Source of the DNA: Akkermansia muciniphila
Lineage (GTDB): Bacteria; Verrucomicrobiota; Verrucomicrobiia; Limisphaerales; SIBE01
Direction of reading: 5' to 3'
Assembly (NCBI GenBank): GCA_945861765.1
Contig: CAMAWP010000016.1
Span: forward strand, 1-43,664
Length of the DNA stretch: 43,664 bases
The position numbers and the translations under genes are program-made. The notes beneath the pieces were generated by a model. That model did no database searches. It worked only from the letters and a program-made list of their open reading frames with translations, and was not told the DNA's origin. Every line of letters starts with the position of its first letter. Within the stretch, counting starts at the first letter, position 1. Below, in pieces: positions 7,726 through 39,396 of the stretch.

Positions 7726-7799
7726 TTCAACTTTGTCCGAACATGTTCCGACTGTCGCATCATGCCGCGAGAATCAATGTGATGGGCATCCCGCCGCTC

Positions 7800-8258: not shown

Positions 8259-8319
8259 GGTTTTGTTTGTTGACTGATTTTGCTGCCCGGTGGCAAAGCG
8301 GTGAAATTCTCAAGGGTGG

Positions 8320-9087
8320 TCATTGCGTTTCGACCTTGGAGTCGGGATCGCGGTTGTTCTCCATGTTTTGGTGAATCTGGAAGTGCTCGTCCTTGTTCAA
8401 CGGAAATTCGTCGGTGAACTGTGAGTGCTGGTATCCGTGAAGTTGCATCAGCAGCAGGAGCAACCCGGCGAACATCAAGGCCGCGTTTGCCACTTTGCTG
8501 AATTTGGTGAACGAAGCCGTCGTGCGCCAGCCCGCCAGAACAATCCACATGCCGGACAGCGCCACGATTTGTCCCAACTCGACGCCGAGGTTGAAGGAGA
8601 GAATCCGCAGCACCAGCCCATCCTGGCCAAGCGGCAGTTGCTGCAATCGGGTGGAGAGGCCGAAGCCATGAATCAATCCGAACAACGTCACCGCGCCGAG
8701 AAGATGTGGAGATTGGACACCAATGTATTGTTTGAACCCATCAAGGTTATCGAACGCCTTGTAACAAACAGTCAATGCGATGACGGCATCGACAAGGTAG
8801 TAGTTGGCTCTGATGTGGAGCAGCGTGGCAAAAACGAGAGTGACGCAATGGCCCAAAGTGAACGCGGTGATGAACTTCACGATGTCGCCCAATCGCGTCA
8901 GGAAGAACATCACGCCGAACAGGAACAACAGATGATCATAGCCGGTCAGCATGTGGGTCGCGCCGAGCTTGATGTATTCCAGGTTGCCGCCCTCCAGAAT
9001 GCCCTGTTTGTCCGCATCGGAGATGCCGTGGGCGAAAGTGGTCAGCGTTGCCAGCCAGAGCGCGGTGACGATGAGAACGTATTTCAT
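8320..9087 (-). CDS. HupE/UreJ_2 family membrane protein
   Basis: The ATG complementary to 9085-9087 gives a signal sequence (MKYVLIVTALWLATLTTFAHG) and a 255-residue protein with about six membrane helices. The family hallmark is GATHMLTGYDHLLFLFGV (His and Asp in the first helix), followed by FTLGHCVTLV and GLIHGFGLS. HupE/UreJ proteins are linked to nickel or cobalt uptake; the UreJ_2 branch is often encoded beside RND metal-efflux genes. Upstream in-frame codons up to 9153 overlap the end of the czcA-1 gene and lack signal-peptide character, so the shorter start is preferred. The C-terminus is a His-bearing soluble tail (HGYQHSQF ... HFQIHQNMEN). It probably handles the same metal as pump 1. 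Confidence 0.85.
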   Translation of the reverse strand: MKYVLIVTALWLATLTTFAHGISDADKQGILEGGNLEYIKLGATHMLTGYDHLLFLFGVMFFLTRLGDIVKFITAFTLGHCVTLVFATLLHIRANYYLVDAVIALTVCYKAFDNLDGFKQYIGVQSPHLLGAVTLFGLIHGFGLSTRLQQLPLGQDGLVLRILSFNLGVELGQIVALSGMWIVLAGWRTTASFTKFSKVANAALMFAGLLLLLMQLHGYQHSQFTDEFPLNKDEHFQIHQNMENNRDPDSKVETQ

Positions 9088-9118: not shown

Positions 9119-12373
<3,255 letters not shown>

Positions 12374-18600: not shown

Positions 18601-18873
18601 CGAGAGGCCGAACTTCGAGAGCGAGCGCAGTTCGATCATGCCGGGCAGTCCGGCCATCTGGCTTTCGAGCGGGAGCGTGACGAGCTTCTCGATTTCCTCC
18701 GGCGCAAGCGCGGGCACGGCAGTGTTCAATAGCACCTGGGGATTGGTGATGTCCGGCACCGCGTCAATCGGCAGGCGTAGGGCCGACCATGCGCCGACAC
18801 CAACAAGGACGAGCGCGGCCAGCAATACGAGCGGCCGTTGGCGGAGCGACCACTCGACGGTCTTGAGTATCAT
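15643..18873 (-). CDS. CzcA-type heavy-metal RND efflux pump, copy 2, with an in-frame palindromic-element insertion
   Basis: A 1076-residue RND pump with helix-4 motif DFGLIIDGAVVMVEN, here D424, D430 and E437. The roughly 20-residue shift relative to copies 1 and 3 comes from an extra segment at residues about 154-174 (DVRRLKPTNAETQSLVTSAAT), encoded by the palindromic element at 18353-18420. The segment lies in the first periplasmic domain just before LMTLKQIQEYIISPLLR and keeps the frame. Otherwise the protein is complete, ending soon after the last membrane helix. It is preceded by its adaptor gene with a 4-bp gap and followed by small gene A. The metal is likely a divalent cation on the same grounds as copy 1. 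Confidence 0.94.
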   Translation of the reverse strand: MILKTVEWSLRQRPLVLLAALVLVGVGAWSALRLPIDAVPDITNPQVLLNTAVPALAPEEIEKLVTLPLESQMAGLPGMIELRSLSKFGLSQIRMTFEDDVDLYRTRQLVSERLLVAAEKLPPGLHPRLAPISTALGEIFYYTVDFASNSPASDVRRLKPTNAETQSLVTSAATMTRTGQLMTLKQIQEYIISPLLRATPGVAEVNTSGGYEKQIVVMPDPARLTSVGLTMDELAHTIGENTQNVGGGLVEIGGEQIVIRANSRVSTTDEIANIPLKFAGAAKALLVQDVAQVGIGSSFRTGAATVNGEEGVVGGALMLAGGNSRIVARDVAAKLKHIQEKLPPGVEVRPLYNRSDLVNRTLHTVETSLFEGALLVVVVLFALLGNLRAALIVALAIPLSMLFAVTGMVESRVSGNLMSLGAIDFGLIIDGAVVMVENIIRHLAHKQKALGRELTAAERFDEVRFSAKEVASPMFFGVLIITVVYIPILALTGIEGKMFRPMALTVIFALAGSLVLALTLMPVLCSYFLRGKIKEDDNWLVRFFKAVYTPLLAWALQFKLVVVTAAVVLFGSSLLVLTRLGAEFIPQLEEGTMLLQFIRSSSAGLGASTELQRQSEKRLLEKFPEIDRIFGLIGTAEIAVDPMGPNLCDTYVEFKPRNQWRKINGRPATKEELIELMRRDLAVHVPGQTYLFTQPIQMRFNEMMAGVRADIAVKIYGDDFKELERLATEVRDLLRKLPGSGDVEFDAFGRSPLLEIKPDRDALRRYSLQTEDLNRAIATALAGEEVGTIIEGNRRFPIVVRLAEAARQSVDTMKRLPVRTDEGGLLTLGQVARFEMLEAVGAVTRESGQRRAAVLVNLRGRDVEGFVKEALAGIKAEVKFPPGYYFEFGGQFENLQRARLRLAIIVPMALVFIFILIFLSFGSFRQAALIFVCVPLAVTGGIFALWVRDMPFTISAGVGFIALSGIAVLNGIMLISFINQLRREGRTVREAVIEGTLTRLRPKLMTALVASFGFVPMAIASGAGAEVQRPLATVVIGGIITSTFLTLVLLPVLYEWVERRGIESPSRVSSVHPADS
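18353..18420. repeat. Palindromic element, copy 1, inserted in frame inside czcA copy 2
   Basis: The plus strand starts GTGGCAGCCGAGGTAACGAG and ends AGCCTCCTCACGTCGGATGC, imperfect inverted repeats of the same terminus found in copies at 23494-23575 and 27927-28012. The interior (TTCGTTGGTTTGAGCCTCC) also resembles the 23494 copy. It is 68 bp, shorter and more diverged than the other two. It is translated as DVRRLKPTNAETQSLVTSAAT in the pump. Confidence 0.82.
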
Positions 18874-20871: not shown

Positions 20872-23016
20872 TCACTTCGACTTCAACAATCGCAGTGCGT
20901 TCGCAATGACGACGAGCGTTGCGCCCGTGTCCGCCAGAATCGCCAGCCAGAGGCTCGTGTAGCCGGACAACGCGAGCGCCAGGAACACGGCCTTCACGCC
21001 AAGCGCGAAGGCGATGTTCGCTTGAATGATGCGGACGGTGCGCCGGCCAAGTTGAATGGCTTCGGCCACCTTGCTCAAATCATCCTGCATCAGCGCGATG
21101 TCGGCTGTTTCAATCGCCGTGTCTGTGCCCACGCCGCCCATTGCGATGCCGATGCTGGCCGCGGCCATCGCGGGAGCGTCGTTCACGCCGTCCCCGATCA
21201 TGCCGACGTGTTTGTGCAGTGCGAGCAGTTCACGGACACGCTCGATTTTCTGGTCGGGCAGCAAATCACCTTTAGCCTCGTCAATCCCAACCTGTTCGGA
21301 AATTGCGTCCACCGTTCGCTGATTGTCGCCGCTTAACATGACGACCTTTTCCACCCCGGCGGCGTGCAGGGCTTTGATGGCTTCGATGGCGTTGGGGCGG
21401 ATGGTGTCGGCAATAGCGAGAATTCCCAGCACTTCGCCTTTGCAATCTTGGTGCGGTTTGTCGCCGACGATGACAACTGACATTGCTTGCGCTTCTAATT
21501 CGGCAAGTTTCTTTTCGAGTTCATCCGAACAGACGGCGGATTCGTGCGCAAAGCGGTGATTGCCGACGAAATACAGGTGGCCGGCAATCTGCGCCTCCGC
21601 GCCCCGACCGGTTTTGGATTGATAGCTCTCGCTACGCGGGAACTGAATCTTCTTTTCCTCCGCATACTTCACGACGGCTTGCGCCAGCGGATGCTCGGAG
21701 TGAGTGTCAATCGCAGCGGCGACGCGCAGGATTTCTTCCTCGGCTTTCCCGTTCCACGGAATCACCTGTTGGACGCGAGGTTTGCCTTCGGTGATCGTGC
21801 TGGTCTTGTCCACGGCGAGAGCCTTGAGCTTTCCAATTTCTTCCAGGAACACTCCGCCCTTGATGAGCACGCCGCGCCGCGCCATCGCGGTCAGGCCGGA
21901 GACAATCGAGACGGGCGTGGCAATCACCAGTGCGCACGGACAGGCGATGACAAGTAGAACCAGCGCGCGATACGTCCACTCCAACCATGCGCCATTGAAA
22001 AGCAACGGGCCGGACAGCAGGACTAGAATCGCCACGACGAAAACCGCAGGCGTGTAAATCTTGGCGAAGCGGTCAACGAAGCGTTGTGAGGGCGCTTTCT
22101 GGCCTTGCGCGTCGCCGAGAAGCTTGATGATTTTGGCCAGCGTGGTGTGGGTCGAAGCCTTGGTCACTTTCACTTCAAGCGAGCCTTCGCCGTTGATTGT
22201 TCCCGCGAAGACGGTGTCACCCGCTTTCTTTTCCACCGGCATGGATTCGCCAGTGATGGGCGCTTGGTTGATAGCGGATTCACCGGAAGTGACAACGCCA
22301 TCCAGCGGCACGCGCGCTCCCGATTTGATGACGATGGTTTCATCCACTTTGACTTCTTCAACTCGCACATCCTGAATCTGATCCCTTCGTTTCACCAGCG
22401 TGGTATCCGGGGTGAGTTCGAGCAGCGATTGGATTGCCCTGCGAGCGCGGCCGACACTGAATCCTTCCAGCAGTTCCGACAGCTCGAACAGAAACACGAC
22501 TGCCGCTGCCTCCGTCCATTCGCCGATGCACGCCGCGCCGATCACCGCGACACTCATCAGCACATTCATGTCGAGCGAGAAGTGGCGCAGGGCGCGAACC
22601 GCCTTCGGGAGAATGAACCAGCCTCCAGCGAGTATGGCGACGACAGCGGCGGTGGCTTTGCCGTAGGGCGCAAAAAGATTCTGGCATTGCAACAGAAGTG
22701 AAACTCCCGTGAAGACGGCGGAGATGCTGACTAGAACTACGCGAACCTTGTTAAAATCAGCGGTGTGTTCCTCCTCCGTTTCGTTTCCACCCATCGCCGG
22801 TGAAGCCTTCAATCCTGCCGTGGCGATGGCTTTGATGAGTTGTTCTGGCGTAACCGATTTGTCGTGGATAATCGTCGCCGTCCCCGCCATGAGGTTGACA
22901 TTGACCTCGCCAACCCCGGAGAGCGGTTTAAGCGCCCTTTCAATCGCGGCGATTTCATCGGGACAGTCCATCCCAGCGACGCGCAAGGTCGTCGCCGAGT
23001 TTGCGATGTTGCCCAC
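20872..23016 (-). CDS. P1B-type heavy-metal-transporting ATPase (ZntA/CadA-like) with DKTST phosphorylation motif
   Basis: A 714-residue pump starting at a GTG (complement of 23014-23016). Residues about 10-75 form one HMA domain with GMDCPDE in place of the common GMxCxxC. The membrane part carries CPC at 359-361 and the end of the protein has DTGATLVVIANALRLL, as in Zn/Cd/Pb pumps of the ZntA group. TGES, a HSEHPLAQA nucleotide-binding element and GDGVNDAP are intact. The phosphorylation loop reads DKTSTIT: D403 is present but the normally invariant Gly is Ser406 (codon 21799-21801, AGC versus GGC). It follows the small CGGC-tailed gene on the same strand and probably exports divalent metal from the cytoplasm if active. 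Confidence 0.93.
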   Translation of the reverse strand: MGNIANSATTLRVAGMDCPDEIAAIERALKPLSGVGEVNVNLMAGTATIIHDKSVTPEQLIKAIATAGLKASPAMGGNETEEEHTADFNKVRVVLVSISAVFTGVSLLLQCQNLFAPYGKATAAVVAILAGGWFILPKAVRALRHFSLDMNVLMSVAVIGAACIGEWTEAAAVVFLFELSELLEGFSVGRARRAIQSLLELTPDTTLVKRRDQIQDVRVEEVKVDETIVIKSGARVPLDGVVTSGESAINQAPITGESMPVEKKAGDTVFAGTINGEGSLEVKVTKASTHTTLAKIIKLLGDAQGQKAPSQRFVDRFAKIYTPAVFVVAILVLLSGPLLFNGAWLEWTYRALVLLVIACPCALVIATPVSIVSGLTAMARRGVLIKGGVFLEEIGKLKALAVDKTSTITEGKPRVQQVIPWNGKAEEEILRVAAAIDTHSEHPLAQAVVKYAEEKKIQFPRSESYQSKTGRGAEAQIAGHLYFVGNHRFAHESAVCSDELEKKLAELEAQAMSVVIVGDKPHQDCKGEVLGILAIADTIRPNAIEAIKALHAAGVEKVVMLSGDNQRTVDAISEQVGIDEAKGDLLPDQKIERVRELLALHKHVGMIGDGVNDAPAMAAASIGIAMGGVGTDTAIETADIALMQDDLSKVAEAIQLGRRTVRIIQANIAFALGVKAVFLALALSGYTSLWLAILADTGATLVVIANALRLLKSK

Positions 23017-23493: not shown

Positions 23494-23575
23494 GTAGCAG
23501 ACGACGTGAGGAGGCTCTATCCCTCCGTCGCTTCGGTTGGTGTTTCAGTTAGAGCCTCCTCACGTCGGCTGCTAC
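23494..23575. repeat. Palindromic element, copy 2, forming the 3' end of czcA copy 3
   Basis: An 82-bp element with 25-bp imperfect inverted termini: the plus strand begins GTAGCAGACGACGTGAGGAG and its other end is the complement (CACGTCGGCTGCTAC). The czcA copy 3 frame enters it and reads KRSSRREEALTETPTEATEG before stopping at TAG (complement of 23517-23519) inside the element. It ends 8 bp from the start codon of the next gene (23486), so it also fills most of the gap between the two genes. Confidence 0.9.
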
Positions 23576-26500
23576 GTTTAGTTTCAAGCCACTCGTAAAG
23601 CGTCGGGAGCAAAACGAGAGTGAGGAAAGTGGAGGATAGGATGCCGCCGATCACGACGGTGGCGAGCGGGCGTTGGACTTCCGCGCCCGCGCCACTGGCA
23701 ATCGCCATCGGCAGGAAGCCGAGCGAGGCTACGAGCGCCGTCATGAGTTTGGGACGCAAGCGCAGCAGAGAGCCGTCCCAGACGGCAGTGCGCACGTCGG
23801 CGCCGCGCTCCCGCAACTGGTTGAAGAAAGTGATGATCATGAGTCCGTTGAGGACAGCGATGCCGGAAAGCGCGATGAAGCCCACGCCCGCCGAAATGCT
23901 GAACGGCAGGTCGCGCGCCCACAGCGCAAAGACGCCGCCGGTCACGGCGAGCGGCACGGCCAGGAACACCAGCAGGGATTGCCGCACGCTTTGCAGGGCC
24001 ATGAAGATGAGGATGAAAATCAGCGCCATCGCAACAGGCACGACGATGGTGAGCCGTTTCCGCGCTTCCATCAGGTTCTTGAACTGGCCGCCGAACTCGA
24101 TGGTGTAGCCGTCCGGCAGCTTGATTTGCTCCGTGATCTTCTTTTGCGCTTCGAGGACGAAGCTTTCCACGTCGCGTCCGCGCAGGTTCACCATGATGGC
24201 GGCGCGGCGTTGGCTGAACTCACGGGCGATGGCGGCGACTTGTTCGACCACGCGGAAGTCGGCGACCTGGCCAAGCGTGAGCAAGCCGCCGTCGTCCACC
24301 CGCACGGGCAGACGCTTGAGATCGTCGATTTTCTCGCGCAATTCCTCGCTCAAGCGAATCACAATGTCGAAGCGGCGGTTGCCTTCGATGAGCTTGCCCA
24401 CTTCCTGCCCGGCGAGCGCGGCGGTGACCACGCGGTTCAACTCGGCGGCGTGCAGGTTGTATTGGCTCATCGCCTCGCGCTTGGGAACTATTTCGAGCAA
24501 AGGTGATTTGCCGAGCGCATCGAACTCCACGTCCGCCGCGCCGGGAACTTTTTCCAAAATGTCCCGCGCCTCGCTGGCAATCCTCTCAATCACCGCGAAG
24601 TCCTCACCAAAGACTTTCACCGCGATGTCGGCGCGGGTGCCTTCGAGAATTTCGTTGAAGCGCATTTCAATGGGTTGGCTGAACAAATGGCCTTCGCCGG
24701 GAAGGTGCTTGCCCAACTCCTCGGTCATCAGCGCGGCGAGGGCTTCCTTGCCGATGGGTTTGCCGTCCACTTTGCGCCACTTATCCAGCGGATTGAACAT
24801 GATGTAGGTGTCCGCGACGTTCACGCCCATCGGGTCGCTCGCGATTTCCGCCGTTCCGAGGCGGCTGAAGGTGTAGGAAACTTCGGGAAATTTCTCCAGT
24901 AGCAGCTTCTCGCCGCGTTTCTGCATTTCCACGCTGGCATCAATGCCGATGCTCGTCGTGCGAATCATGTGGGTGGCGAACGAACCTTCGTCCAATTGGG
25001 GCACGAATTCCGCCCCCAGCCGGTTGAACACAGAAACCGCCAGGATGAACAAAACCAGCGCCGCGCCGGTGACGACCCAGCGGAAGCCCAGCGCGAAGCG
25101 CAGGATGGGCGTATAGACGATCTTGGCCCAGTTCACGAGGAAGCTGTCCTTCTCCTTGATGTTACCGCCGAGCAGATACGAGCAAAGCGCAGGCATGAAC
25201 GTGAGTGCCAGAGCCATCGAACCGACGAGCGCGAAGATGACGGTGATCGCCATCGGCTTGAACATTTTTCCCTCGATGCCAGTGAGCGCGAGAATCGGGA
25301 AATAGACGACGGTGATGATGCACACGCCGAAGAACATTGGGCTGGCGACCTCCTTGGCGCTGACGAGCACTTCCTGGGCTCGCTCCAGCGCGGTTAACCG
25401 GCGTCCGAGCTTGTGCTGTTTCTCCGCGAGATGACGGATGATGTTTTCCACCATCACGACCGCGCCATCCACGATCAGACCGAAGTCAATCGCGCCCAGG
25501 CTCATCAAATTGCCGGAGACTCGGCTCTGCACCATGCCGGTCATAGCGAAGAGCAGTGACAGCGGAATGGCCAACGCGACGATGAAGGCCGCACGCCAGT
25601 TAGCGAGCATGACGAGCAGCACGACGACGACTAGGATCGCGCCCTCAAACAAACTTGTTTCCACCGTGCGGATGGTGCGATCCACCAGCACGGTGCGGTC
25701 ATAGACCGGGATGATTTGCACGCCCGCCGGGAGTTTGGTCTGAATCTCCTTGAGCTTTTCATCCACACGTTTGGCGACGATGCGGCTGTTTTCACCGGCC
25801 AGCATCAGGGCGGAGCCGAGCACAGCTTCTTCGCCGTTGTAAGTCGCCGTGCCGGTGCGAACGGCTTTCCCGATGCCCACGTCCGCAACGTCTTTGACGC
25901 GCAACGGCGTGGCGCGCGAACCGAACTTGAGCGGCAGCCGCTCGATTTCCTCCACGGTTTGCACCCGGCCCGCCGCGCGCACCGTGACCGATTCGCCGCC
26001 GAGTTGGATCAGGCCACCACCTGCATTCTCGACGTTCTCGCCGATGGCTTCGGCAATTTCACTAAACGACATGCCGACGCTCTTGAGCTTGTCGGGATTG
26101 GGCTGAATGACGATTTGCTTTTCGTAACCGCCGGTGGTGTTGACTTCGGCGAGGCCGGGTGTGGAACGCAGGCGCGGCTTGATGACGTAATCGTGCAGGA
26201 GCTTGAGTTCCATCAACTGCGCCTCGCGCGTGGCGGGCTTGTTCGTAGCGCCCACCGCGTATTCGACGACGTAGTAATAAATCTCGCCGAGGCCGGTGCT
26301 GATGGGCGCGAGCTTGGGCGTGAGGCCGGGTGGCAATTCATCAATCACCGTCTGCAAGCGTTCGCTAACGAGTTGGCGCGAGCGATAGATGTCTGTGCCA
26401 TCCTCGAAGATGATGTTCACTTGCGAGAGTCCGAACTTGGAGAGCGACCTCAACTCCGTCAGGCCGGGGATGCCCGCCATCTCGTTCTCAATCGGAAAGG

Positions 26501-26696
26501 TGACGAGCTTTTCGATTTCCTCCGGGGCCAGAGCGCGGATCGCAGTGTTGATCTGCACCTGGACGTTGGTGATGTCCGGCACGGCGTCAATCGGCAGGCG
26601 CAGCGCGGAGTAAAGGCCGATGCCAACCATGACCACGGTGGCGAGCAGCACGACCACGCGCTGGCGGACGGAGAATTCAAGGAGACGGTTGAGCAT
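23517..26696 (-). CDS. CzcA-type heavy-metal RND efflux pump, copy 3
   Basis: A 1059-residue RND pump, closer to copy 2 than to copy 1. Helix 4 reads [15 protein letters not shown] with D404, D410 and E417, the CzcA proton-relay set. The periplasmic segment EYAVGATNKPATREAQLMELK is the uninterrupted version of the place where copy 2 has its insertion. The last 19 or so residues (RSSRREEALTETPTEATEG) and the stop codon come from the palindromic element at 23494-23575; the native C-terminus probably ended near EWLETK. Unit 3 also has a TolC (28024-29349) and a short adaptor (27191-28027), but a plus-strand four-helix-bundle gene separates them from this pump. Confidence 0.94.
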   Translation of the reverse strand: MLNRLLEFSVRQRVVVLLATVVMVGIGLYSALRLPIDAVPDITNVQVQINTAIRALAPEEIEKLVTFPIENEMAGIPGLTELRSLSKFGLSQVNIIFEDGTDIYRSRQLVSERLQTVIDELPPGLTPKLAPISTGLGEIYYYVVEYAVGATNKPATREAQLMELKLLHDYVIKPRLRSTPGLAEVNTTGGYEKQIVIQPNPDKLKSVGMSFSEIAEAIGENVENAGGGLIQLGGESVTVRAAGRVQTVEEIERLPLKFGSRATPLRVKDVADVGIGKAVRTGTATYNGEEAVLGSALMLAGENSRIVAKRVDEKLKEIQTKLPAGVQIIPVYDRTVLVDRTIRTVETSLFEGAILVVVVLLVMLANWRAAFIVALAIPLSLLFAMTGMVQSRVSGNLMSLGAIDFGLIVDGAVVMVENIIRHLAEKQHKLGRRLTALERAQEVLVSAKEVASPMFFGVCIITVVYFPILALTGIEGKMFKPMAITVIFALVGSMALALTFMPALCSYLLGGNIKEKDSFLVNWAKIVYTPILRFALGFRWVVTGAALVLFILAVSVFNRLGAEFVPQLDEGSFATHMIRTTSIGIDASVEMQKRGEKLLLEKFPEVSYTFSRLGTAEIASDPMGVNVADTYIMFNPLDKWRKVDGKPIGKEALAALMTEELGKHLPGEGHLFSQPIEMRFNEILEGTRADIAVKVFGEDFAVIERIASEARDILEKVPGAADVEFDALGKSPLLEIVPKREAMSQYNLHAAELNRVVTAALAGQEVGKLIEGNRRFDIVIRLSEELREKIDDLKRLPVRVDDGGLLTLGQVADFRVVEQVAAIAREFSQRRAAIMVNLRGRDVESFVLEAQKKITEQIKLPDGYTIEFGGQFKNLMEARKRLTIVVPVAMALIFILIFMALQSVRQSLLVFLAVPLAVTGGVFALWARDLPFSISAGVGFIALSGIAVLNGLMIITFFNQLRERGADVRTAVWDGSLLRLRPKLMTALVASLGFLPMAIASGAGAEVQRPLATVVIGGILSSTFLTLVLLPTLYEWLETKRSSRREEALTETPTEATEG

Positions 26697-29840: not shown

Positions 29841-29985
29841 AAACGGCCGCACAGAATGATGAATATGCCATCGTATGGAATTGTCAACTGAAGTTTGGTG
29901 TGAATATCGGCATGGCCGCGCTTACCAGGGCGGTGTCTATTCGTTGGTGGACCCGCACCACAACGATCTGCTATACATGTCACCC

Positions 29986-32361
29986 ATGAAAAATCGAATA
30001 CATGCCTGCCTCCTGTTGATCGGCCTCACTCTGCCGACCTTCGGTCAGCCCTATTTCGTCGCCCCTGCCGGCAAAGACTCGAATCCTGGCACGTTGGAAA
30101 AACCCTTCGCCAACCTCCAACGCGCACAACAAGCGGTACGCCAGAAACCAGGCGCCGTGTTTGTGCGCGGCGGCACCTACTATCTGCCGAAGACCTTGGT
30201 TTTCACCGCTCTGGATTCCGGTAGGGAGGGCGCGCCGGTTGTTTACCAAGCCTACGAAAACGAGCAGCCGGTCATCAGCGGTGGCGTCGGGCTGGAGAAT
30301 CTCGACTGGCAGCCCGCCAAGGGTGGCATCTTTCAGGCGAAAGTGCCGGCGGATCTGCGCACCGAGGAAATCTTCGTGAACGGCGAGCGCCAGATCCTGG
30401 CGCGCTACCCGAACTTCGATCCCGCCGCGAAGTATTTTGACGGTTTTGCTGCCGACGCGATCTCCGCGAATCGCATCGCGCGGTGGGCCGATCCGGCGGG
30501 CGGTTATTTCCACGCCATGCACCCATCGCTCTGGGGCGATTTCACCTGGCGCATCACCGGAAAGGACGCGAACGGGGAAGTCACGAAGGAAGGCGGCTGG
30601 CAGAACAATCGGGGCGGGGCGGTGCATCGGACCATTCGTTTCGTGGAAAATATTTTCGAGGAGCTGGACGCGCCGGGCGAGTGGTTCCTCGAGGCGAAGA
30701 CGCACACGCTCTATTTCTATCCCCCGACCGGGCTGGACCTGAAAAGCGCTCAAGTGGAGGCCACGCGGTTGCGCAGCCTGGTCGAGTTTCACGGCAACGA
30801 GGCAAATCCCGTGCGCTTCGTCACGTTGCGCGGGCTGACGTTTCGTCACGCGGCGCGCACGGTGATGGACACGAAGGAACCGATGCTGCGCTCCGACTGG
30901 GCCATCTATCGCGGCGGAGCGATCTTCTTTGAGGGCGCGGAGGATTGCGCGGTGGAGGACAGCTTCATCGATCAGGTGGGCGGCAACGCGGTGTTCATCA
31001 ACCACTATAATCGCCGCATCGCGGTGCGGGGCTGTCGGATCGCCAAAGCCGGTGCCAGCGGTGTTTGCTTCTTCGGCGACCCGCAAGCGGCGCGGAATCC
31101 GTTGTTCCACTACGATCAGGTGAACAAACTTGAGGACCTTGACCGCACGCCTGGACCGAAGAGCAATAGTTATCCTGCTGACTGCCTTGTGGATAATTGC
31201 CTGATCTACCTGACTGGCCGCGTGGAAAAGCAAACCGCTGGCGTGGCCATTGATCTCGCCCAGAGCATCACGGTGCGGAGTTGCTCGATTTACGACATGC
31301 CTCGTTCGGGCATCAACATTGGCGACGGCTGCTGGGGCGGTCACGTCATTGAATTTTGCGACATCTTCGACACGGTGAAAGAGACCGGCGATCACGGCTC
31401 GTTCAATTCCTGGGGCCGGGACCGGTTCTGGCGTCCCAAGATCGCCGAGGTCAACGAATGGGTGAAGGAAGTTCCCGATCTGCCGCGCCTGGACGCCGTC
31501 AAGCCTGTCATCCTGCGGAACAACCGGTGGCGTTGCGATCACGGTTGGGACATCGATCTCGACGACGGCTCTTCCAACTACATCATCACCAACAATCTTT
31601 GTCTGCGCGGCGGCATCAAGAACCGCGAGGGCTACGGGCGCATCGTCGAGAACAACGTCACCGTCAGCTCGGGGCTGCACCCGCACGTTTGGTATGCCGC
31701 GAGCGGCGACATTTTCCGGCGCAACATTGTCTGGACAGACTATCGTCCCGCGTTGATGCCCCCGGCACCGTGGGGTGTCGAGATGGATCACAATCTCATG
31801 CACCAGGAAGGCGCGACCAAGGGGCCCGCCGTCCGTTTGCAACGCCACAGCGGACGCGACGAACATTCCATCGTAGCGGACGCCCAGTTCATGGATCCCG
31901 CGAAAGGCGATTACCGCGTGAAGGACGGTTCGCCCGCGCTGGCTCTAGGTTTTGTGAATTTTCCAATGGACCAATTCGGCGTTCGAAAACCGGGGCTGAA
32001 GGCTCTCGCCCGTACGCCCGTCCTTCCGGGCTCAAAACTCATCGCCGACCCGTCCGCCAAGCGAGACATCGCGCCCCGCAAATGGCTGGGCGCCAGCGTC
32101 CGCAACATTGCGGATCAAGGGGAGATGTCAGCCTTTGGCCTCCCCGGTGTGACTGGTGTGCTCGTGCTGGAAGTGCCCGCCGCTTCGGCCTTGGCGAGAG
32201 CCGGGTTGCAACGGAACGATGTGATCCTCTCTGTCAACGGAACCAAAGCCGCTGCAGTGACCACCTTGCTGCAAGAAGCGCCCGCGCTCGCTGACTTCCA
32301 AACACTCGCACTGGGCATCTTACGCCAGCAAAAGGAAAGTGTTCTAAACGTCACGCCGTGA
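29986..32361 (+). CDS. Secreted right-handed parallel beta-helix protein with C-terminal PDZ domain
   Basis: The ATG at 29986 yields 791 residues with a signal peptide (MKNRIHACLLLIGLTLPTFG). In-frame codons back to 29875 do not look like a signal peptide. Residues about 17-110 are the usual cap (YFVAPAGKDSNPGTLEKPF; VRGGTYYLPKTLVF). The middle is a pectate-lyase-like beta helix (VEDSFIDQVGGNAVFINHYN; VRSCSIYDMPRSGINIGDG; DHGSFNSWGRDRFW). The layout resembles GH141-like and related glycan-active enzymes, though I cannot assign catalytic residues. Residues about 700-785 read as a PDZ domain (GVLVLEVPAASALARAGLQR, then NDVILSVNGTKA). Probably a periplasmic or surface polysaccharide-degrading enzyme. 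The 32362-32642 gap after it holds no gene I can support. Confidence 0.85.
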   Translation: MKNRIHACLLLIGLTLPTFGQPYFVAPAGKDSNPGTLEKPFANLQRAQQAVRQKPGAVFVRGGTYYLPKTLVFTALDSGREGAPVVYQAYENEQPVISGGVGLENLDWQPAKGGIFQAKVPADLRTEEIFVNGERQILARYPNFDPAAKYFDGFAADAISANRIARWADPAGGYFHAMHPSLWGDFTWRITGKDANGEVTKEGGWQNNRGGAVHRTIRFVENIFEELDAPGEWFLEAKTHTLYFYPPTGLDLKSAQVEATRLRSLVEFHGNEANPVRFVTLRGLTFRHAARTVMDTKEPMLRSDWAIYRGGAIFFEGAEDCAVEDSFIDQVGGNAVFINHYNRRIAVRGCRIAKAGASGVCFFGDPQAARNPLFHYDQVNKLEDLDRTPGPKSNSYPADCLVDNCLIYLTGRVEKQTAGVAIDLAQSITVRSCSIYDMPRSGINIGDGCWGGHVIEFCDIFDTVKETGDHGSFNSWGRDRFWRPKIAEVNEWVKEVPDLPRLDAVKPVILRNNRWRCDHGWDIDLDDGSSNYIITNNLCLRGGIKNREGYGRIVENNVTVSSGLHPHVWYAASGDIFRRNIVWTDYRPALMPPAPWGVEMDHNLMHQEGATKGPAVRLQRHSGRDEHSIVADAQFMDPAKGDYRVKDGSPALALGFVNFPMDQFGVRKPGLKALARTPVLPGSKLIADPSAKRDIAPRKWLGASVRNIADQGEMSAFGLPGVTGVLVLEVPAASALARAGLQRNDVILSVNGTKAAAVTTLLQEAPALADFQTLALGILRQQKESVLNVTP

Positions 32362-32642: not shown

Positions 32643-34634
32643 TTACGGATCGAGTCGGTAGCGCCGGTGCATGTAGAGATCGTCGGCCACCTGGTAAATT
32701 GCCGCGCTGTTTCGCTCCAGGATTTCCTCTCGATTGGTTGGTTTCGTGATTCGCTTTATCTCGACGAGATTGGGGTCGCCCTCGTAAAACTCAACGGTGT
32801 GTCGGAGGCCAAACACGACCATCTGTTCCTTGGTGTAGAGACCGATGTCGCGGTTGTGGTGCAGCAGCACGCGCCCGTCGTCAACGCGACTCTTCAGGAG
32901 GTCACGACCAAAAAACAGGGTCTCGTATGGCCTGCCTAGTAATCCCATTACCGTGGGTGCGACATCCAACGAGCAGCCCAGTTGCGGCAATCGAGCCGGA
33001 GTTGTTACCGCTGCCGGTCCAAGGATAACGAATGGGATTTCGTAAGAGTGGATCGGAATGCTCTGGCTGCCATACACTCGCGCGCCATGGTCCGCAATAA
33101 CGACAAACACTGTATTGGTCCGGAACGGCTCTTTCTTGGCTGCCTTGAAGAACTCGCCCAGGCTGTAATCGGAATACTCGACCGCGTTCTCGCGCTTCCG
33201 CTCGTCGGGATCTTCGGCGATGCGGCCTTTGGGATACGTGAAGGGTTTATGGTTCGACACGGAAAGGATGGTGCCGAGAAAGGGTTTTCCCGTTGCGGCT
33301 AACGCACGAAATTCTTCGATGGATCGCGCCATCAAGTCCTCGTCGGCCACACCCCAAATGGTGGTGAAGGTCGGTTTGGCAAAGTGCTTCTGCTCAATGA
33401 AACGATCCCACCCGTTCCGGATCGCGTAGGAGCGCATCCCGTCGAAAACACCGCGCCCGCCGTAGAGAAAGACGGTCTCGTAGCCGTCGCGTTTGAGAAG
33501 ACGCGCGATGGTTTCCACGTTCTCGGATTGATCGCGCCTAACGATGGAGTCTCCGGGCAGCGGCGGGAACGAGGACAGCACGGCTTCCAACCCCCTCACC
33601 GTGCGGTTGCCCGAGGCATAGATGTGGGTGAACAGCAGTCCTTCCTGGGTGGCCAGTTTATCCATCTCCGGCGTGAGCGTGGGCTCTTTCCGGCCCAGTG
33701 AACCCCAAAACTCCGATCCCAGAGCCTCCTCAAGGATGATCACCACATTCAGCTTGGGACGGCTTGGGTCGCCGGCGACGCGTCGGCGGATCGAGTGTCC
33801 GGCCTCCACAAATTCTGTGCCCGGTTCCTTCAGTAGCTGCCGTGTGCGCTCGTAGGCCTCGTCCAGGGGAATCGTGCGGTAAAAGGCGGCGTAGTCCAGA
33901 TGATGGGTCAGCAGGGCGGCGGCGAAGGAGAGCGTACCGTTGTTCCCCATCTCATTGAGAATTCGTTCCTTGCTGAAACGGTTTTCCTTGAGCGAAACCG
34001 AGCGGCTCAGCAGCGCACAGGCGACCATCACGACCGCCAAGATTCCGCCGCGCGCTTTGGCGCTGACGGGTTCGGTCCACATGGCGTGGAACACCCTGCC
34101 CGTGCCCCAAACCCACAGGGCGCTCACGACCGCGCAACCTAGCAGCACCTTGCCGACAGGATAGGAGTCCCAGATGTTGATGAAGACCTCATGGGGAAAA
34201 AGCAGGTACTCCACCGCCACGGTGTTGAAACGAGAGCGGAATTCATCAAAGAAAAAATACTCCGTGAAGAGCAGAAATGACTGCACCACCCAGTGGAGTG
34301 AAAACGCTGTCTGGAGCAGAACCCGATGCCACGGCCGGCCAAAGGTGCGGTTTGAAACGACCAAAAACCAGCCTAGCAAAGGCAACGAATACAGAAGGCT
34401 CACGAACAAATCGCGGTAGGTTCCGATCAGGAAAGTCTGGGCGACATCGCCGATGGGAACGTTCTCGGGCCGGAACTGGGTGAACAACACCCACCGCAGT
34501 CCCGCCCAAAAGAGCATCGAGGACATGACGAAAAAGACGGCCAAACCATACCGGCTTCGCCACCAGATAGTCGGAGTGGTCTCGACCGGAGGTTTTCTGG
34601 GGCAGAAATCGCTTGTGACTTGTTCGTGAGCCAT
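32643..34634 (-). CDS. LtaS/MdoB-type membrane sulfatase-fold phosphoglycerol (or phosphoethanolamine) transferase
   Basis: From the ATG complementary to 34632-34634 the protein has 663 residues: about five N-terminal membrane helices (residues about 35-215) and an extracytoplasmic alkaline-phosphatase/sulfatase domain. Key elements are VVIILEEALGSEFWG (metal-ligand Glu), SGNRTVRGLEAVLSSFPPLP with the presumed nucleophile Thr, an ILSVSNHKPFTYP segment and VFVVIADHGARVYG with the Asp/His metal ligands. Family members transfer phosphoglycerol or similar groups to glycans or lipids; in Gram-negatives the MdoB type modifies periplasmic glucans. The actual acceptor is unknown. It is the last gene of the minus-strand cluster, 98 bp after the PTS gene, and may belong to that transcript. 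Confidence 0.88.
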   Translation of the reverse strand: MAHEQVTSDFCPRKPPVETTPTIWWRSRYGLAVFFVMSSMLFWAGLRWVLFTQFRPENVPIGDVAQTFLIGTYRDLFVSLLYSLPLLGWFLVVSNRTFGRPWHRVLLQTAFSLHWVVQSFLLFTEYFFFDEFRSRFNTVAVEYLLFPHEVFINIWDSYPVGKVLLGCAVVSALWVWGTGRVFHAMWTEPVSAKARGGILAVVMVACALLSRSVSLKENRFSKERILNEMGNNGTLSFAAALLTHHLDYAAFYRTIPLDEAYERTRQLLKEPGTEFVEAGHSIRRRVAGDPSRPKLNVVIILEEALGSEFWGSLGRKEPTLTPEMDKLATQEGLLFTHIYASGNRTVRGLEAVLSSFPPLPGDSIVRRDQSENVETIARLLKRDGYETVFLYGGRGVFDGMRSYAIRNGWDRFIEQKHFAKPTFTTIWGVADEDLMARSIEEFRALAATGKPFLGTILSVSNHKPFTYPKGRIAEDPDERKRENAVEYSDYSLGEFFKAAKKEPFRTNTVFVVIADHGARVYGSQSIPIHSYEIPFVILGPAAVTTPARLPQLGCSLDVAPTVMGLLGRPYETLFFGRDLLKSRVDDGRVLLHHNRDIGLYTKEQMVVFGLRHTVEFYEGDPNLVEIKRITKPTNREEILERNSAAIYQVADDLYMHRRYRLDP

Positions 34635-34732
34635 CTTAGAGACTTTTGGGCACGCGATCGAGCGCGTCAAAGCTTCATTTGGGTCACTTTGGCTTGCAGA
34701 CGGTGAACGGGATGTTCCACTGCGGTATCAAG

Positions 34733-35980
34733 CTATTGGTGCTCGGGTTGCGCGGCCTCGGCTTTCAAGCGCTGTCGTTCCCCGGCTTTCGCAAACGGAT
34801 AATAGACTAACATCGCTATCACAATCGAGATCCCTCCCCAAAGGGCGGCTTTCCAGTCACCACCCGAAACCAGGTAGTGTCCGATGATCGGCGGGGTGGT
34901 CCATGGAACGTTGACGAAAGGTTTTTGAATGATATCCCAGTGCATCAACAGATAGCTGCCGGCAGTCAGGATGAGAGCGTTGAGGATGTATGGAATCATG
35001 AAAATAGGATTCAAAACGATCGGGAAACCGAAGAAGATGGGTTCGTTGATCTGGAAAATTTGGGTCGGCAGGGATAGGCGGCTGATCTTTCGGAAGCCCG
35101 GCTCTTTGGAGTTCCACATGATCAGCGCAAGAGCAATGGTGGCCCCAGTCCCCCCGACGTTCACGAAGGTGGTAAAGAATCCGTAAGCAGTCACGTAAGG
35201 CAGGGGTTGGCCTAACCCCCTCGCTGCGACGTTTTCGGCCAAGTATTGGAGGAAAATCGGTGCCACGATGGCGTCCATCGCGTTGTCGCCATTGATGCCG
35301 ACGGACCACAGGAGGGTTACCAGAAAGGCATACACCAGAATCCCGGGCAGGGTGTTCAGAGCAAAAACCAGGGGTTTGAAAGCGGTTTGCACGAGGTGAT
35401 CGATATCCACCCCCAACACGAAACGAATAACCCAGAAAACCACGACGAGGAAGAACAGAGGACTGAGAGAGAGAAAGGACTCGTAAACAACCGGTGGCAC
35501 ATTCGCGGGCAGCTTGATAACGAACTTCTTGTCCGTGAAGAATTTCTGAACGCGGACGGAGATCAGAGCGATGAGGATCGCGGTGAAGAGCCCTTTGGAG
35601 CCGAGGCTGTCCATCGAAAAGGTCAGATCCTCTAGCTTTAGAGAAATCATCAGAAAAATCACGGTGGCCATCGAAGCACTCACAATGGCTTCCTGTTTCA
35701 ATTGTTTTCCAAGGTCGTAGCCGATCGCAAAGCAGACAAAAATGCCGAGGAGCCCGAAGGTGGCAGTCACCGGCACCTGCAAAAGCTGAAGGTAGGGGGC
35801 GATCAGCTTGTCCCAGCCAGTTATTGGCAGGTAAGACAAGACTGTAAACAGGCCTCCGATGATGGTCAGCGGCACCACCGACACCATGCCGGCACGGATG
35901 GCAGACATGTAGGTGTTCTCACTCACCGCAGTCAACGCAGGGACGACGTGAGTGTTGAGGAATTGGGTCGGTTGGGTCAC
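34733..35980 (-). CDS. PTS sugar transporter EIIC (cellobiose/lichenan CelB type), orphan
   Basis: A 415-residue polytopic protein that starts with GTG overlapping the stop of the DegT gene by 4 nt (GTGA), so translation is probably coupled. It shows EIIC-Lac family features: FLNTHVVPALTAVSENTYMSAIRAGMVSVVPLTIIGGLF at the start (given in shorter pieces in the family motif: VVPLTIIGG), a central LWSVGINGDNAMDAIVAP, FVNVGGTGATIALAL, and FQINEPIFFGFPIVLNP, the conserved sugar-site region. No EIIA, EIIB, EI or HPr gene lies in the window. The gene neighbours a GH84 N-acetylglucosaminidase-like enzyme, so an N-acetylglucosamine-containing sugar is a reasonable substrate guess. Without EIIB it could act as a facilitator. 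Confidence 0.9.
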   Translation of the reverse strand: MTQPTQFLNTHVVPALTAVSENTYMSAIRAGMVSVVPLTIIGGLFTVLSYLPITGWDKLIAPYLQLLQVPVTATFGLLGIFVCFAIGYDLGKQLKQEAIVSASMATVIFLMISLKLEDLTFSMDSLGSKGLFTAILIALISVRVQKFFTDKKFVIKLPANVPPVVYESFLSLSPLFFLVVVFWVIRFVLGVDIDHLVQTAFKPLVFALNTLPGILVYAFLVTLLWSVGINGDNAMDAIVAPIFLQYLAENVAARGLGQPLPYVTAYGFFTTFVNVGGTGATIALALIMWNSKEPGFRKISRLSLPTQIFQINEPIFFGFPIVLNPIFMIPYILNALILTAGSYLLMHWDIIQKPFVNVPWTTPPIIGHYLVSGGDWKAALWGGISIVIAMLVYYPFAKAGERQRLKAEAAQPEHQ

Positions 35981-37227
35981 ATCGGCTGGTTATTAAACCA
36001 CGCGTTCAGCCCTTCGCGATTCTCATGAATCTTCTCAAAGGCTCGGCCGATATCGTCCATATCCGCCCGAGATCCGAGCAGCAGGCTCTGTTCGAGCCAA
36101 ACACATTGTTCGCGGCAGATGAGGTCGCTGTTAGGGCAACGGGTCTTGGCGTAGTTCTGTTTCGTGGAGGCTATCGGCAGGAAAGGATGGAAAGCCTTTT
36201 TTTGGAATAACGGTTGGTGGTGCAGGGATAACACGTAGCCGCCGGAGCAGGGGACTCCCTCGGCTTGGAGAGCCTTGATCACGGCGGCGCGGGGCGCGCC
36301 AAACGCTCGACCGTCCACCCGCAGCATGAACAAGTGGTAACTGTGGCGTGTGCAATCGGGGGGACGCTTTTGAGGATGAATGCCGGGCAGTTGAGCGATG
36401 CGAGACGCCAGGTGCTGGCCGTTGCGGTCGCGCGTTTTGGTCTGCGACTCGAGCCGTTCCAACTGGCAGTTGAGGATGGCACCCTGGAATTCGCCTAGCC
36501 GGTAATTGCCCGAGATGACGTGGTGCTCGTACCACGCGCCGCTTGGGATCCGTCCGCAATTGTGAATGGAGCGGCAGGCCTCAGCCATGGTCTCATCGTT
36601 CGTGATGAGGAGGCCGCCCTCGCCACATGTGAGGTTCTTGCTGGACTGGAACGAGAATGATGCCACGTGTCCCAGGGAACCTGCCGGACGGTTCCGGGTG
36701 CTCGCCCCGTGCGCGTGGGCGGCGTCCTCGATGACGACGAGGTTGTGCTTTTTCGCGATGTCCATCAGCGATCGCATGTCGGCTGGTTGACCCGCGAAAT
36801 GAACCGGGATGAGAGCCTTTGTGCGCGGCGTGAGGACGGCCTCCACGGACCTGGGATCCAGGTTGAAAGTTTCCAGGTCAATGTCCGCGAAGATTGGAAC
36901 CGCGTTGGCTTCCACCACCGCAGAGGCGGTCGACAAGAACGTATAGCACGGAACAATCACCTCGTCCTCGGCGCGGATGCCGGCCGCCATCAGGGCGATG
37001 CGCAAGGAGACGGTGCCATTCACAACGCCAACGCCGTGTCTGCAGCCATGCATCGTTGCGAACCGGTTTTCGAATGTGGACACTTCCGATCCGGCGAGCT
37101 TGCCCCATTTGCCGCTGCGCAACACACGGAGCAGCCCTCTTTCCTCCGGCCTTCCGAAGATGGGCCACGACGTGAAGGGCCGAGTGCGAATGGGCTTTCC
37201 TCCAAGAAGAGCGAGTGCTTTTGACAT
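35977..37227 (-). CDS. DegT/DnrJ/EryC1/StrS family PLP-dependent aminotransferase
   Basis: From the ATG complementary to 37225-37227 the protein has 416 residues. The PLP site is complete: GVVNGTVSLRIALMAAGIRA, EDEVIVPCYTFLSTASAVV, VVIEDAAHAHGA (Asp168 contacting the pyridine nitrogen) and SFSFQSSKNLTCGEGG with Lys197 as the Schiff-base lysine. Family members transaminate keto-sugars or act on related cyclic ketones (AHBA and 2-deoxy-scyllo-inosose types). The substrate cannot be read from sequence. It is 31 bp downstream of the GNAT gene and overlaps the PTS EIIC gene, so amino-sugar or inositol-type metabolism is likely for the whole cluster. Confidence 0.92.
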   Translation of the reverse strand: MSKALALLGGKPIRTRPFTSWPIFGRPEERGLLRVLRSGKWGKLAGSEVSTFENRFATMHGCRHGVGVVNGTVSLRIALMAAGIRAEDEVIVPCYTFLSTASAVVEANAVPIFADIDLETFNLDPRSVEAVLTPRTKALIPVHFAGQPADMRSLMDIAKKHNLVVIEDAAHAHGASTRNRPAGSLGHVASFSFQSSKNLTCGEGGLLITNDETMAEACRSIHNCGRIPSGAWYEHHVISGNYRLGEFQGAILNCQLERLESQTKTRDRNGQHLASRIAQLPGIHPQKRPPDCTRHSYHLFMLRVDGRAFGAPRAAVIKALQAEGVPCSGGYVLSLHHQPLFQKKAFHPFLPIASTKQNYAKTRCPNSDLICREQCVWLEQSLLLGSRADMDDIGRAFEKIHENREGLNAWFNNQPM

Positions 37228-37258: not shown

Positions 37259-37888
37259 TCAGTCTCCCAGTGTCCTGCCCATGTAGGCGCAACCTCCATC
37301 CAAGGCGCCGACGCGGATCAACTCCCGGAACCCTAGACGAAGGTAGAATCCGAATGCGGGTGTGTTGGCCGCGCTCACGCCAAGATGTGCGCCCGGAGAA
37401 CCACGGTCACGGAGCCGCTTCATCACCTGCTCAAGCATGCGTCGGCCATAGCCACGTCCTTGGGCGCGCGGCAGGAGATCGATGTGCAGATGAGAGGGAT
37501 AAGCCTCGTAAGGCTCAGGGCAGAAATAATCGGGGTGATGATACCCATCATAAACACTTTGAACCCGCGTCCATTGTCCAGGATGCCCTTGAGGGGCGGG
37601 AAAACGGGCGCATAAATCCTGGCGCCACTCGCTCTCATAGCGGGCGAAGAAGGCGTGTGAATCGAAGGCGCCAAGGGCGTAGCCGCAGACGCCCCGCTCG
37701 TCCTCCAGGGTGAGGCTCAGATCCGGCTCGAAGGCCAGGTATGGGCCGACAAAGATTCGACCCAATGCGTCGGGGTCATCCCTGTAATACGGCTCGCCGT
37801 CCTTGCCGTAGTCGCCCGTCTTGAGGCAAACATAGTAAGCTCCCCGCTCATCGTCAGGCCGGGCAGGACGGATTACGCAATCATTCAC
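37259..37888 (-). CDS. GNAT-family acetyltransferase homologous to the C-terminal HAT-like domain of eukaryotic OGA
   Basis: A 209-residue protein starting at a GTG (complement of 37886-37888). Its N-terminal half (VIRPARPDDERGAYYVCLKT; LTLEDERGVCGYALGAFDSH; FFARYESEW) follows the pattern of the C-terminal domain of human O-GlcNAcase as I recall it. The C-terminal half has the acetyl-CoA loop RAQGRGYGRRML (R141-x-x-G144-x-G146) and NTPAFGFYLRLGFREL. In human OGA the domain is reported not to bind acetyl-CoA; here the loop looks intact, so true N-acetyltransfer (for example to an amino sugar) is plausible. It sits 119 bp downstream of the GH84 gene and 31 bp upstream of the aminotransferase gene, same strand. 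Confidence 0.88.
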   Translation of the reverse strand: MNDCVIRPARPDDERGAYYVCLKTGDYGKDGEPYYRDDPDALGRIFVGPYLAFEPDLSLTLEDERGVCGYALGAFDSHAFFARYESEWRQDLCARFPAPQGHPGQWTRVQSVYDGYHHPDYFCPEPYEAYPSHLHIDLLPRAQGRGYGRRMLEQVMKRLRDRGSPGAHLGVSAANTPAFGFYLRLGFRELIRVGALDGGCAYMGRTLGD

Positions 37889-37924
37889 AGTTTAAAAAAA
37901 GTTCGATGAGTTGTTATCACAACC

Positions 37925-37936
37925 GTTACCGGTACC
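37925..37936. promoter_or_regulatory. Imperfect palindrome, candidate operator upstream of the GNAT-DegT-PTS genes
   Basis: GTTACCGGTACC reads the same on both strands at 10 of 12 positions with a central CG, the style of LacI-family operators. It lies in the 119-bp gap between the GH84 stop and the GNAT start, next to an A-tract (37892-37899 region). No LacI-type regulator gene is in the window. Weak evidence. Confidence 0.3.
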
Positions 37937-38007
37937 GTGTTCTCCGTCGCGACTGAGTCTTATCTTGATCGTTGATTGAGACAAGTCTCCTCTGAGGTTG
38001 ATGATTC

Positions 38008-39396
38008 CTAGGCAGCATGGGTCGGAGCAAATCCTCCGTTCGCTTGTTGAACCAGCAGACCTTGCAGCCCGGCAACGATCCCGCCACGGTAGGTGCCGGG
38101 CAAATGAAAATCAGAACTGCCAAGGATCCCGGGGCTCGGGTTTTCAGATTTCATTCGCACATAGCGGTCCAGCAAATCCAGTTCCTCTCGAAGTTCCCAG
38201 AGCCGACGGTTGAGCGCATAAAAAAGCGGGCGCTGCCGAAGTTCTGACAACCGGACGCAGAAGTCCCGCAACCTGGCTGCGCGGGCCTGGAAAAGGGCTG
38301 CCTGATCACCCCACTCCGAGGGATTCTGAGCTAACAAACTCCGGGCGCTGGCATAAAGCGATCTCCCCTCAGGACCCTCTTCGTAGGGCAGGTAGTAGCA
38401 GTCCCCGAAGCAGATCAGATCCTCGAGAGTGACCTGTCTGCCAACCGTCTCGAAATACGGCAACCACTCCTGGATCGCGGCCAAGTAGGCCGCACGAGCA
38501 TCCCATGCGCCACGGCAACGCGCGAATTCTGCCAGAGTTCGGAGTGGCACATAATTCAGTGGAAACTCGGTGTTCGGGTTACACATCAAACCGCTCACCT
38601 CCGCCCGCAGTTCCGGCGCGCGTCCGCTGTAAGGTCCGCAGAAGAACCGATGCCCGTCATAATCGTTGGCATGGAGGTTATCCCAGATCAGCGGCTTCCG
38701 CCGAAGCACCTCACGCAGCGCCTGAACGTGGTTGACCGTTATCTCCCTCGAGATGATTTCTGGCCCGGTCCAAAAGATATCAATCTCTCTCAAAAGCTCG
38801 CGGCCGATCGTTGCGAGGTATCCTTCTCCACCCAGTTTTCCGTCGGCCATCCGTCCGCAATAGGCTGTAGGACAGAAAAGGAAACGGGCGTCTGGACATC
38901 TCCCAAGGATCCACTTGAACAAGGAATTCGCCACATGGCATTGTGCCGACGCAAGCGAGCCCAATCGCCCAGTATCCTCAGTCTCCAAGCCATCTGGGAT
39001 GTCGTCGAAAAAGAGCGAGAAATGCTGGCAGCCCAAGCCGTTCATCTGTTCAAAACGCTTTTTGAGATGATCCAACTCATCTTCATTCGAGTAACGGATG
39101 TCCAGTCCTGGGCTCAGGGCATAAATGAATCGGATCTGGCTCTGCTGGCAGGCCTCGATCAATTGTCCGAGCGTTTTAGCTTCCGATGGGGAGTAAAGTT
39201 GACGCCAGAGGGCTCGATGGTTCAGGTCGTCTTTTGGAGCGTACAAATAGGTGTTTAATCCCCACCGTGCCATCCATCCGAACAGCTCGAATCGTTCCGC
39301 CATGGTCCAAGGCTGCCCATAGAAGCCTTCTATCACTCCGACCATAAAACTTGTTGTCTCGCGCGTTTCCATGCGTTCGTCGGATTGAATGAGCAT
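38008..39396 (-). CDS. GH84 protein O-GlcNAcase-like beta-N-acetylglucosaminidase
   Basis: A 462-residue protein from the ATG complementary to 39394-39396 (a second ATG at 39372 is possible). The catalytic barrel is strikingly like eukaryotic OGA: GVIEGFYGQPWTMAERFELF, NTYLYAPKDDLNHRALWRQ, FIYALSPGLDI, FSLFFDDIPDG with the catalytic Asp pair D131-D132, FCPTAYCG, IFWTGPEIIS and IWDNLHANDYDGHRFFCGPY with the Asn and Asp that bind the N-acetyl group. A helical segment follows (about 300-440). No signal peptide is seen, so a cytoplasmic enzyme is likely, acting on imported GlcNAc-containing sugars or on glycosylated protein. It heads the cluster with GNAT, DegT, PTS EIIC and the sulfatase. Confidence 0.93.
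   Translation of the reverse strand: MLIQSDERMETRETTSFMVGVIEGFYGQPWTMAERFELFGWMARWGLNTYLYAPKDDLNHRALWRQLYSPSEAKTLGQLIEACQQSQIRFIYALSPGLDIRYSNEDELDHLKKRFEQMNGLGCQHFSLFFDDIPDGLETEDTGRLGSLASAQCHVANSLFKWILGRCPDARFLFCPTAYCGRMADGKLGGEGYLATIGRELLREIDIFWTGPEIISREITVNHVQALREVLRRKPLIWDNLHANDYDGHRFFCGPYSGRAPELRAEVSGLMCNPNTEFPLNYVPLRTLAEFARCRGAWDARAAYLAAIQEWLPYFETVGRQVTLEDLICFGDCYYLPYEEGPEGRSLYASARSLLAQNPSEWGDQAALFQARAARLRDFCVRLSELRQRPLFYALNRRLWELREELDLLDRYVRMKSENPSPGILGSSDFHLPGTYRGGIVAGLQGLLVQQANGGFAPTHAA

Follow-up and report, generated by a model that had tools for sequence, protein, structure and literature searches.

The 43,664 nucleotide stretch of DNA analysed in this work (the window) carries on its minus strand the parts of an O-GlcNAcase as two neighbouring genes, one for a predicted beta-N-acetylglucosaminidase of family GH84 and one for a GNAT acetyltransferase which resembles the HAT domain of eukaryotic OGA and keeps the residues of the acetyl-CoA site. 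We give a probability of about 0.55 to the reading that this GNAT N-acetylates imported glucosaminides so that the GH84 enzyme, which needs a 2-acetamido group, can cut them. The features of the locus are the following.

38008..39396, minus strand: GH84 OGA-type beta-N-acetylglucosaminidase, 462 aa (open reading frame, Pfam, solved relatives)
38461-39339, minus strand: GH84 catalytic domain, with the helical stalk domain at about 38035-38440
39001..39006, minus strand: catalytic Asp-Asp pair D131-D132 within LFFDDIPD, matching D174-D175 of human OGA in the alignment
37889..38007, minus strand: spacer between GH84 and GNAT, 119 nt
37259..37888, minus strand: OGA-HAT-like GNAT acetyltransferase, 209 aa, GTG start (open reading frame, Pfam, solved relatives, predicted structure)
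37484..37486, minus strand: H135 of the GNAT, equivalent of OgpAT His135, the proposed general base (alignment)
37445..37462, minus strand: acetyl-CoA pyrophosphate loop Q143-G-R-G146-Y-G148 of the GNAT (alignment)
35977..37227, minus strand: DegT/DnrJ/EryC1/StrS aminotransferase, likely ATG start at 37227
34733..35980, minus strand: orphan PTS EIIC of the lactose/cellobiose/chitobiose family (nearest solved protein 3qnq, E 2e-66)

The initial annotation had taken the two proteins for the two parts of eukaryotic OGA, lying next to each other on one strand, and both statements hold. The assignment to GH84 is based on the Pfam NAGidase domain (278.8 bits, E 6.8e-83, cut-off 25 bits) and on the catalytic Asp pair. 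Human OGA is the best solved relative of this protein (E 1.5e-102), and OgOGA (2xsa/11lh, E 2e-85) aligns with residues 16-454, which correspond to the catalytic and the stalk domain. The enzyme is the sole GH84 of the genome and has no apparent signal peptide. Its gene is located upstream of the GNAT gene, and no terminator-like site is found on the minus strand of the spacer. With a stop, the 119 nt gap and a start of its own for the GNAT, the window pair is not the single polypeptide of eukaryotic O-GlcNAcase.

The best solved relatives of the GNAT are SsAT (4bmh, E 8e-42) and OgpAT (3zj0, E 1e-41), followed by the HAT domains of Trichoplax and human OGA (E 3e-24 to 3e-19), all other solved proteins being at E > 1e-5; we looked for a placement of the GNAT outside the OGA-HAT clade and saw none. 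The predicted structure (pLDDT 96) superposes on OgpAT 3zj0 with Z 30.9 and an rmsd of 1.5 A over 202 residues (44% identity over the whole protein), on SsAT with Z 28.1 (39% identity) and on the Trichoplax OGA HAT domain with Z 25.7. The nearest GNAT outside the OGA-HAT family reaches Z 17.8 over 152 residues, and GNATs at this level are devoid of about 50 residues. Judged from the model, the whole-length match and the fold with its two family-specific insertions argue for membership of the OgpAT/SsAT family.

The window GNAT and OgpAT share one residue numbering, and in OgpAT Rao et al. 2013 (PMC3814719) considered H135 (proposed base), G144-R145-G146, N175 and Y182. In the alignment the acetyl-CoA loop, Thr24/25, Asn175 and His135 are all kept. 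The initial annotation was right that the site is preserved, unlike in human OGA, but its R-x-x-G-x-G register was wrong: the canonical loop is Q143-x-x-G146-x-G148, which aligns with OgpAT G144-R145-G146. H133, H135 and G148 never vary among 109 aligned bacterial GNAT sequences; T24 and N175 are kept in 108 and G146 in 103. Human OGA has M, K, S and D at the positions of T24, H135, G146 and N175, and the four equivalents are lost in Trichoplax too, with a Glu at H135; H133 and G148 are both lost in human, and Trichoplax keeps H133 and has lost G148. OgpAT binds acetyl-CoA, an ability that was lost when G144-R145-G146 was replaced by the human residues (PMC3814719). Binding of acetyl-CoA and acetyl transfer are predicted for the window GNAT.

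The block continues, as was left out of the initial annotation, into the genes of the DegT aminotransferase and the EIIC permease. DegT starts 31 nt past the GNAT stop (its longest open reading frame begins at 37299), and EIIC overlaps the DegT stop by 4 nt. The permease is the only EIIC in the genome, where HPr is present; neither PTS_IIB (PF02302) nor lac-type PTS_IIA (PF02255) was found in this 96%-complete genome, control profiles having matched. The window EIIC does not belong to a canonical EIIABC system and is therefore an orphan, probably a PTS permease used without phosphorylation. Its nearest solved relative 3qnq we take to be the chitobiose-type EIIC of B. cereus (the entry title gives cellobiose).

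The fructose-bisphosphate aldolase gene upstream of the block and the LTA-synthase-like gene downstream of it are not conserved with the block in relatives. The latter gene (32643-34670), directly 3' of EIIC, encodes a membrane protein of sulfatase fold that resembles phosphoglycerol transferase/lipoteichoic acid synthase. Elsewhere in the window, 9119-29628 looks like a metal-efflux island, with three AcrB-type RND pumps (9119-12361, 15643-18873, 23517-26696), two outer-membrane efflux proteins, a HlyD-type fusion protein and a heavy-metal P-type ATPase (20872-23016). At 1812-5753 a protein of 1313 aa combines DUF7133 and HEAT repeats with a 3-keto-disaccharide hydrolase domain at its C-terminus, and 29875-32361 encodes a right-handed beta-helix protein that has PDZ as its C-terminal domain.

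We propose that the block may constitute a cytoplasmic amino-sugar salvage operon. The EIIC permease would import beta-linked glucosamine-containing oligosaccharides of the chitin/chitosan or peptidoglycan type, a transport substrate assigned by homology. The GNAT would use acetyl-CoA to N-acetylate the free non-reducing glucosamine ends of these oligosaccharides, GH84 would then hydrolyse the acetylated glucosaminides to GlcNAc and the aglycone, and the DegT aminotransferase may process a different amino or keto sugar from that material. The nucleophile in GH84 enzymes is the substrate's own 2-acetamido group (PMC4683255, PMC10636738), so that a non-acetylated glucosaminide is not expected as a substrate; the simplest task for a cytoplasmic acetyl-CoA-dependent GNAT tied to GH84 would be to restore the acetyl group. 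Gene identity and order, the conserved catalytic and cofactor residues, strict co-occurrence and the operon partners are observed; the acceptor, the order of acetylation before cutting, the cargo of EIIC and the role of DegT are our inference. In the window operon there is no sugar kinase, deacetylase or deaminase, and the fate of the GlcNAc must therefore rest on genes elsewhere.

Co-occurrence was analysed in 286 genomes of the class to which the window belongs, OGA-type GH84s being defined as same-order matches with E < 1e-75. The GNAT is present in 23 of these genomes and an OGA-type GH84 in 15, all fifteen of which carry the GNAT (Fisher p 1e-19, only indicative since the class genomes are related to each other). 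Both genes are adjacent or fused in 13 of the fifteen, including one where the contig ends inside the GNAT, and on different contigs in two. The 32 class genomes with other GH84s are all without the GNAT. Conservation of the adjacency, on which the initial annotation had made its reading depend, is also evident in the 80 closest GNAT loci of GTDB genomes, a set ranked by similarity and hence biased: GH84 is just upstream of the GNAT or fused to it in 41, EIIC is just downstream in 27 and DegT in 11. In relatives L027, L028 and L032 GH84 and GNAT overlap by 4 nt. The adjacency spans Verrucomicrobiota, Planctomycetota, Acidobacteriota-labelled metagenome-assembled genomes and Trueperaceae; in Actinomycetota, Alphaproteobacteria and Meiothermus many members of the GNAT family have no GH84 nearby. 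No relative was found in the viral contigs searched. That the two genes are chance neighbours, for which the 119 nt gap in the window could be quoted, is already refuted by conservation over several phyla, the 4 nt overlaps and the fusions.

Four bacterial frames join GH84, stalk and GNAT in one polypeptide, an OGA-like architecture outside eukaryotes:

L036:6058-8427: Verrucomicrobiota fusion, matching human OGA over both halves (E 3e-130)
L098:2961-5489: Planctomycetota fusion
L109:2-1984: Planctomycetota fusion, cut by the contig end
L186:3489-5534: Planctomycete fusion, complete frame of about 680 aa

Their sources include metagenome-assembled genomes. Acetyl-CoA loops and His residues are intact in all four, and EIIC is also the next gene after the fusions L098, L109 and L186. 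A 691-aa frame in L047 was rejected as a fifth fusion, its N-terminal part corresponding to no Pfam family and looking like an out-of-frame reading.

In the tree of the GH84 catalytic domain, a phylogeny which the initial annotation had called for, human and Trichoplax OGA group with the GNAT-linked bacterial GH84s, that of the window included (support 99/98), apart from those of Streptomyces and Deinococcus taeanensis and from other GH84s. In the GNAT tree the metazoan HAT domains are long branches whose placement shifts between quick and careful trees, and because of this instability it is not used as evidence. In a concatenated tree the Planctomycete fusions form a clade of their own inside a group of split pairs (support 100/99 within 98/94), the branch supports keeping this trio, L036 and metazoan OGA apart. 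Repeated fusion rather than a single one is favoured, and is not proven since a single origin of all fusions is not rejected by AU tests (p 0.098-0.26 over all tests, 0.098-0.22 for those on the concatenated data).

Two operon types are found among the relatives. Type A, that of the window, is GH84-GNAT-(DegT aminotransferase)-orphan ChbC-like EIIC. EIIC is also conserved beside the GNAT in loci that have no GH84 (L061, L063, L065, L071, L079-L081). Type B is ABC permeases-GH84-GNAT-BadF kinase-SIS protein (L095, L104, L108, L122 and, in part, L101). Its BadF kinase is nearest to MurNAc/GlcNAc kinase (2e-25), and its SIS protein belongs to the UPF0309/SCO4393 family (8.7e-34, the protein searched being that of L042), which recent work has identified as the GlcNAc-6P dehydratase NagS (PMC12680351). 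A second OGA-HAT-like GNAT of the window's own genome (L042:6637-7299, contig C172), without GH84, overlaps by 4 nt a gene of this NagS family (UPF0309, L042:5903-6640). On plasmids, the GNAT lies between BadF kinase/ROK and nagB-nagA in Falsirhodobacter, and in Duffyella its neighbours are a sugar ABC transporter, BadF kinase and ROK. By predicted gene function all these neighbourhoods are those of amino-sugar catabolism, and the operon partners support the amino-sugar metabolism at which the initial annotation had hinted. A distant family member on the Deinococcus radiodurans megaplasmid (L057:6986-7618) is convergent to a PIG-L-type de-N-acetylase (7638-8690), which has the opposite reaction, and nagA is nearby.

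These neighbourhoods also provide the closest rival to our mechanism, in which acetylation follows hydrolysis. The GNAT would acetylate free glucosamine or glucosamine-6-phosphate, feeding a GlcNAc kinase/NagS or NagA route, and never an oligosaccharide, and its link to GH84 would be that of a shared pathway only. GNATs without GH84 do adjoin NagS, NagB/NagA and BadF kinases, and the substrates of NagS are GlcNAc-6P and ManNAc-6P (PMC12680351). We nevertheless consider this explanation rather unlikely, as the window operon has no kinase and as OGA-type GH84 is never without the GNAT in the class sample. This strict pairing, and the fusion of the two in Planctomycetes and in one Verrucomicrobium, suggest that the substrate or product of GH84 itself is involved.

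A second alternative starts from the DegT protein, which among solved proteins is closest to AHBA synthase and 2-deoxy-scyllo-inosose aminotransferases. DegT and GNAT could build or detoxify an aminocyclitol or amino-sugar compound, from which GH84 would remove GlcNAc; GNATs often modify aminoglycosides. However, DegT is dispensable, many of the 80 closest loci keeping GH84-GNAT-EIIC without it, no other biosynthesis genes are present in the block, and type B operons are plainly catabolic. A pathway of this kind appears improbable.

Still less credit is given to bacterial protein O-GlcNAc cycling or protein acetylation, where GH84 would strip O-GlcNAc from proteins and the GNAT would acetylate proteins or regulate GH84. 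The family resemblance to OGA invites this explanation, and the structural neighbours of the GNAT model beyond the OGA-HAT family are N-terminal acetyltransferases. An O-GlcNAc system has been proposed for T. terrenum (PMC4683255), and the genome carries one GT41 (OGT-like) gene (C397:3747-4880, 647-aa frame). This gene is, however, on another contig and unlinked to GH84, and the pair is accompanied by transporters and GlcNAc-6P enzymes rather than by genes for protein modification. We rejected O-GlcNAc cycling since GT41, the OGT family, is not associated with the GNAT in the 286 class genomes (2/23 with the GNAT versus 34/263 without, p 0.82).

Acetylation before hydrolysis by GH84 is favoured by the intact sites, the 15/15 co-occurrence, the type B partners, the NagS overlap, the fusions and the ChbC-like EIIC. 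Against it counts that an acceptor has been shown for no protein of the OgpAT/SsAT family, that DegT is left unexplained and is frequently missing from the loci, and that so many family members have no GH84 nearby, from which it follows that the GNAT reaction is not bound to GH84.

Rao et al. described in 2013 (PMC3814719) the split OgOGA-OgpAT operon in Oceanicola granulosus, together with the intact site in bacteria and the human pseudo-domain, and assigned no function to the operon. As in the window, a stalked GH84 is followed there by an adjacent OGA-HAT-like GNAT with an intact acetyl-CoA site; the window pair differs by continuing into DegT and the orphan ChbC-like EIIC. SsAT of Streptomyces sviceus, reported independently (PMC3919268), shares family and fold with the window GNAT, but in the Streptomyces loci examined no GH84 adjoins the GNAT. 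Metazoan O-GlcNAcase (human, Trichoplax) has the same GH84 catalytic, stalk and HAT-like parts and keeps the DD pair; it is one gene and not two, it has lost both the acetyl-CoA loop and the base which the window keeps, and its stalk carries a disordered insert which is absent from the window GH84. Work on several species confirmed in 2025 that acetyl-CoA is not bound by the HAT domains of metazoans (PMC12494797).

Precedents exist for acetylation before cutting. The fungal GH3 N-acetylglucosaminidase RmNag is fused to an assayed glucosamine N-acetyltransferase, and the same rescue of terminal GlcN was proposed (PMC4680927); in contrast to the window, the hydrolase family is unrelated and the GNAT is a different, tandem one at the C-terminus. 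The glucosaminide N-acetyltransferase of C. acetobutylicum, as far as its citation in PMC4680927 goes, acts before hexosaminidase cleavage. Its likeness to our proposal, that GlcN ends are acetylated ahead of the hexosaminidase cut, is one of proposed role. To our knowledge the hexosaminidase associated with it is not a GH84. In the open-access literature we found no function given to bacterial OGA-HAT-like GNATs and no account of type A or B operons. While the split GH84-GNAT pair is already known, the class-wide co-occurrence, the two operon types, the four fusions with intact sites and the second GNAT overlapping NagS are new.

The original purpose of the acetyltransferase-like domain in O-GlcNAcase is a long-standing question. 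The salvage reading suggests that the metazoan pseudo-HAT domain is a relic of an amino-sugar N-acetyltransferase. A wider reading, to which we give somewhat less than an even chance, is that bacteria possess catalytically complete bifunctional relatives of O-GlcNAcase, split here and fused in Planctomycetes and one Verrucomicrobium, which would N-acetylate and then hydrolyse glucosaminides that an orphan, non-phosphorylating ChbC-like permease delivers. In that case the pseudo-HAT domain of metazoans would be the dead remnant of this amino-sugar acetyltransferase. Intact bacterial counterparts in catabolic operons, together with the intact-site fusions, make the ancestral function of the HAT domain testable. 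If true, the origin of the human HAT domain would be explained, and a new enzyme pair for the breakdown of chitosan or peptidoglycan would be at hand.
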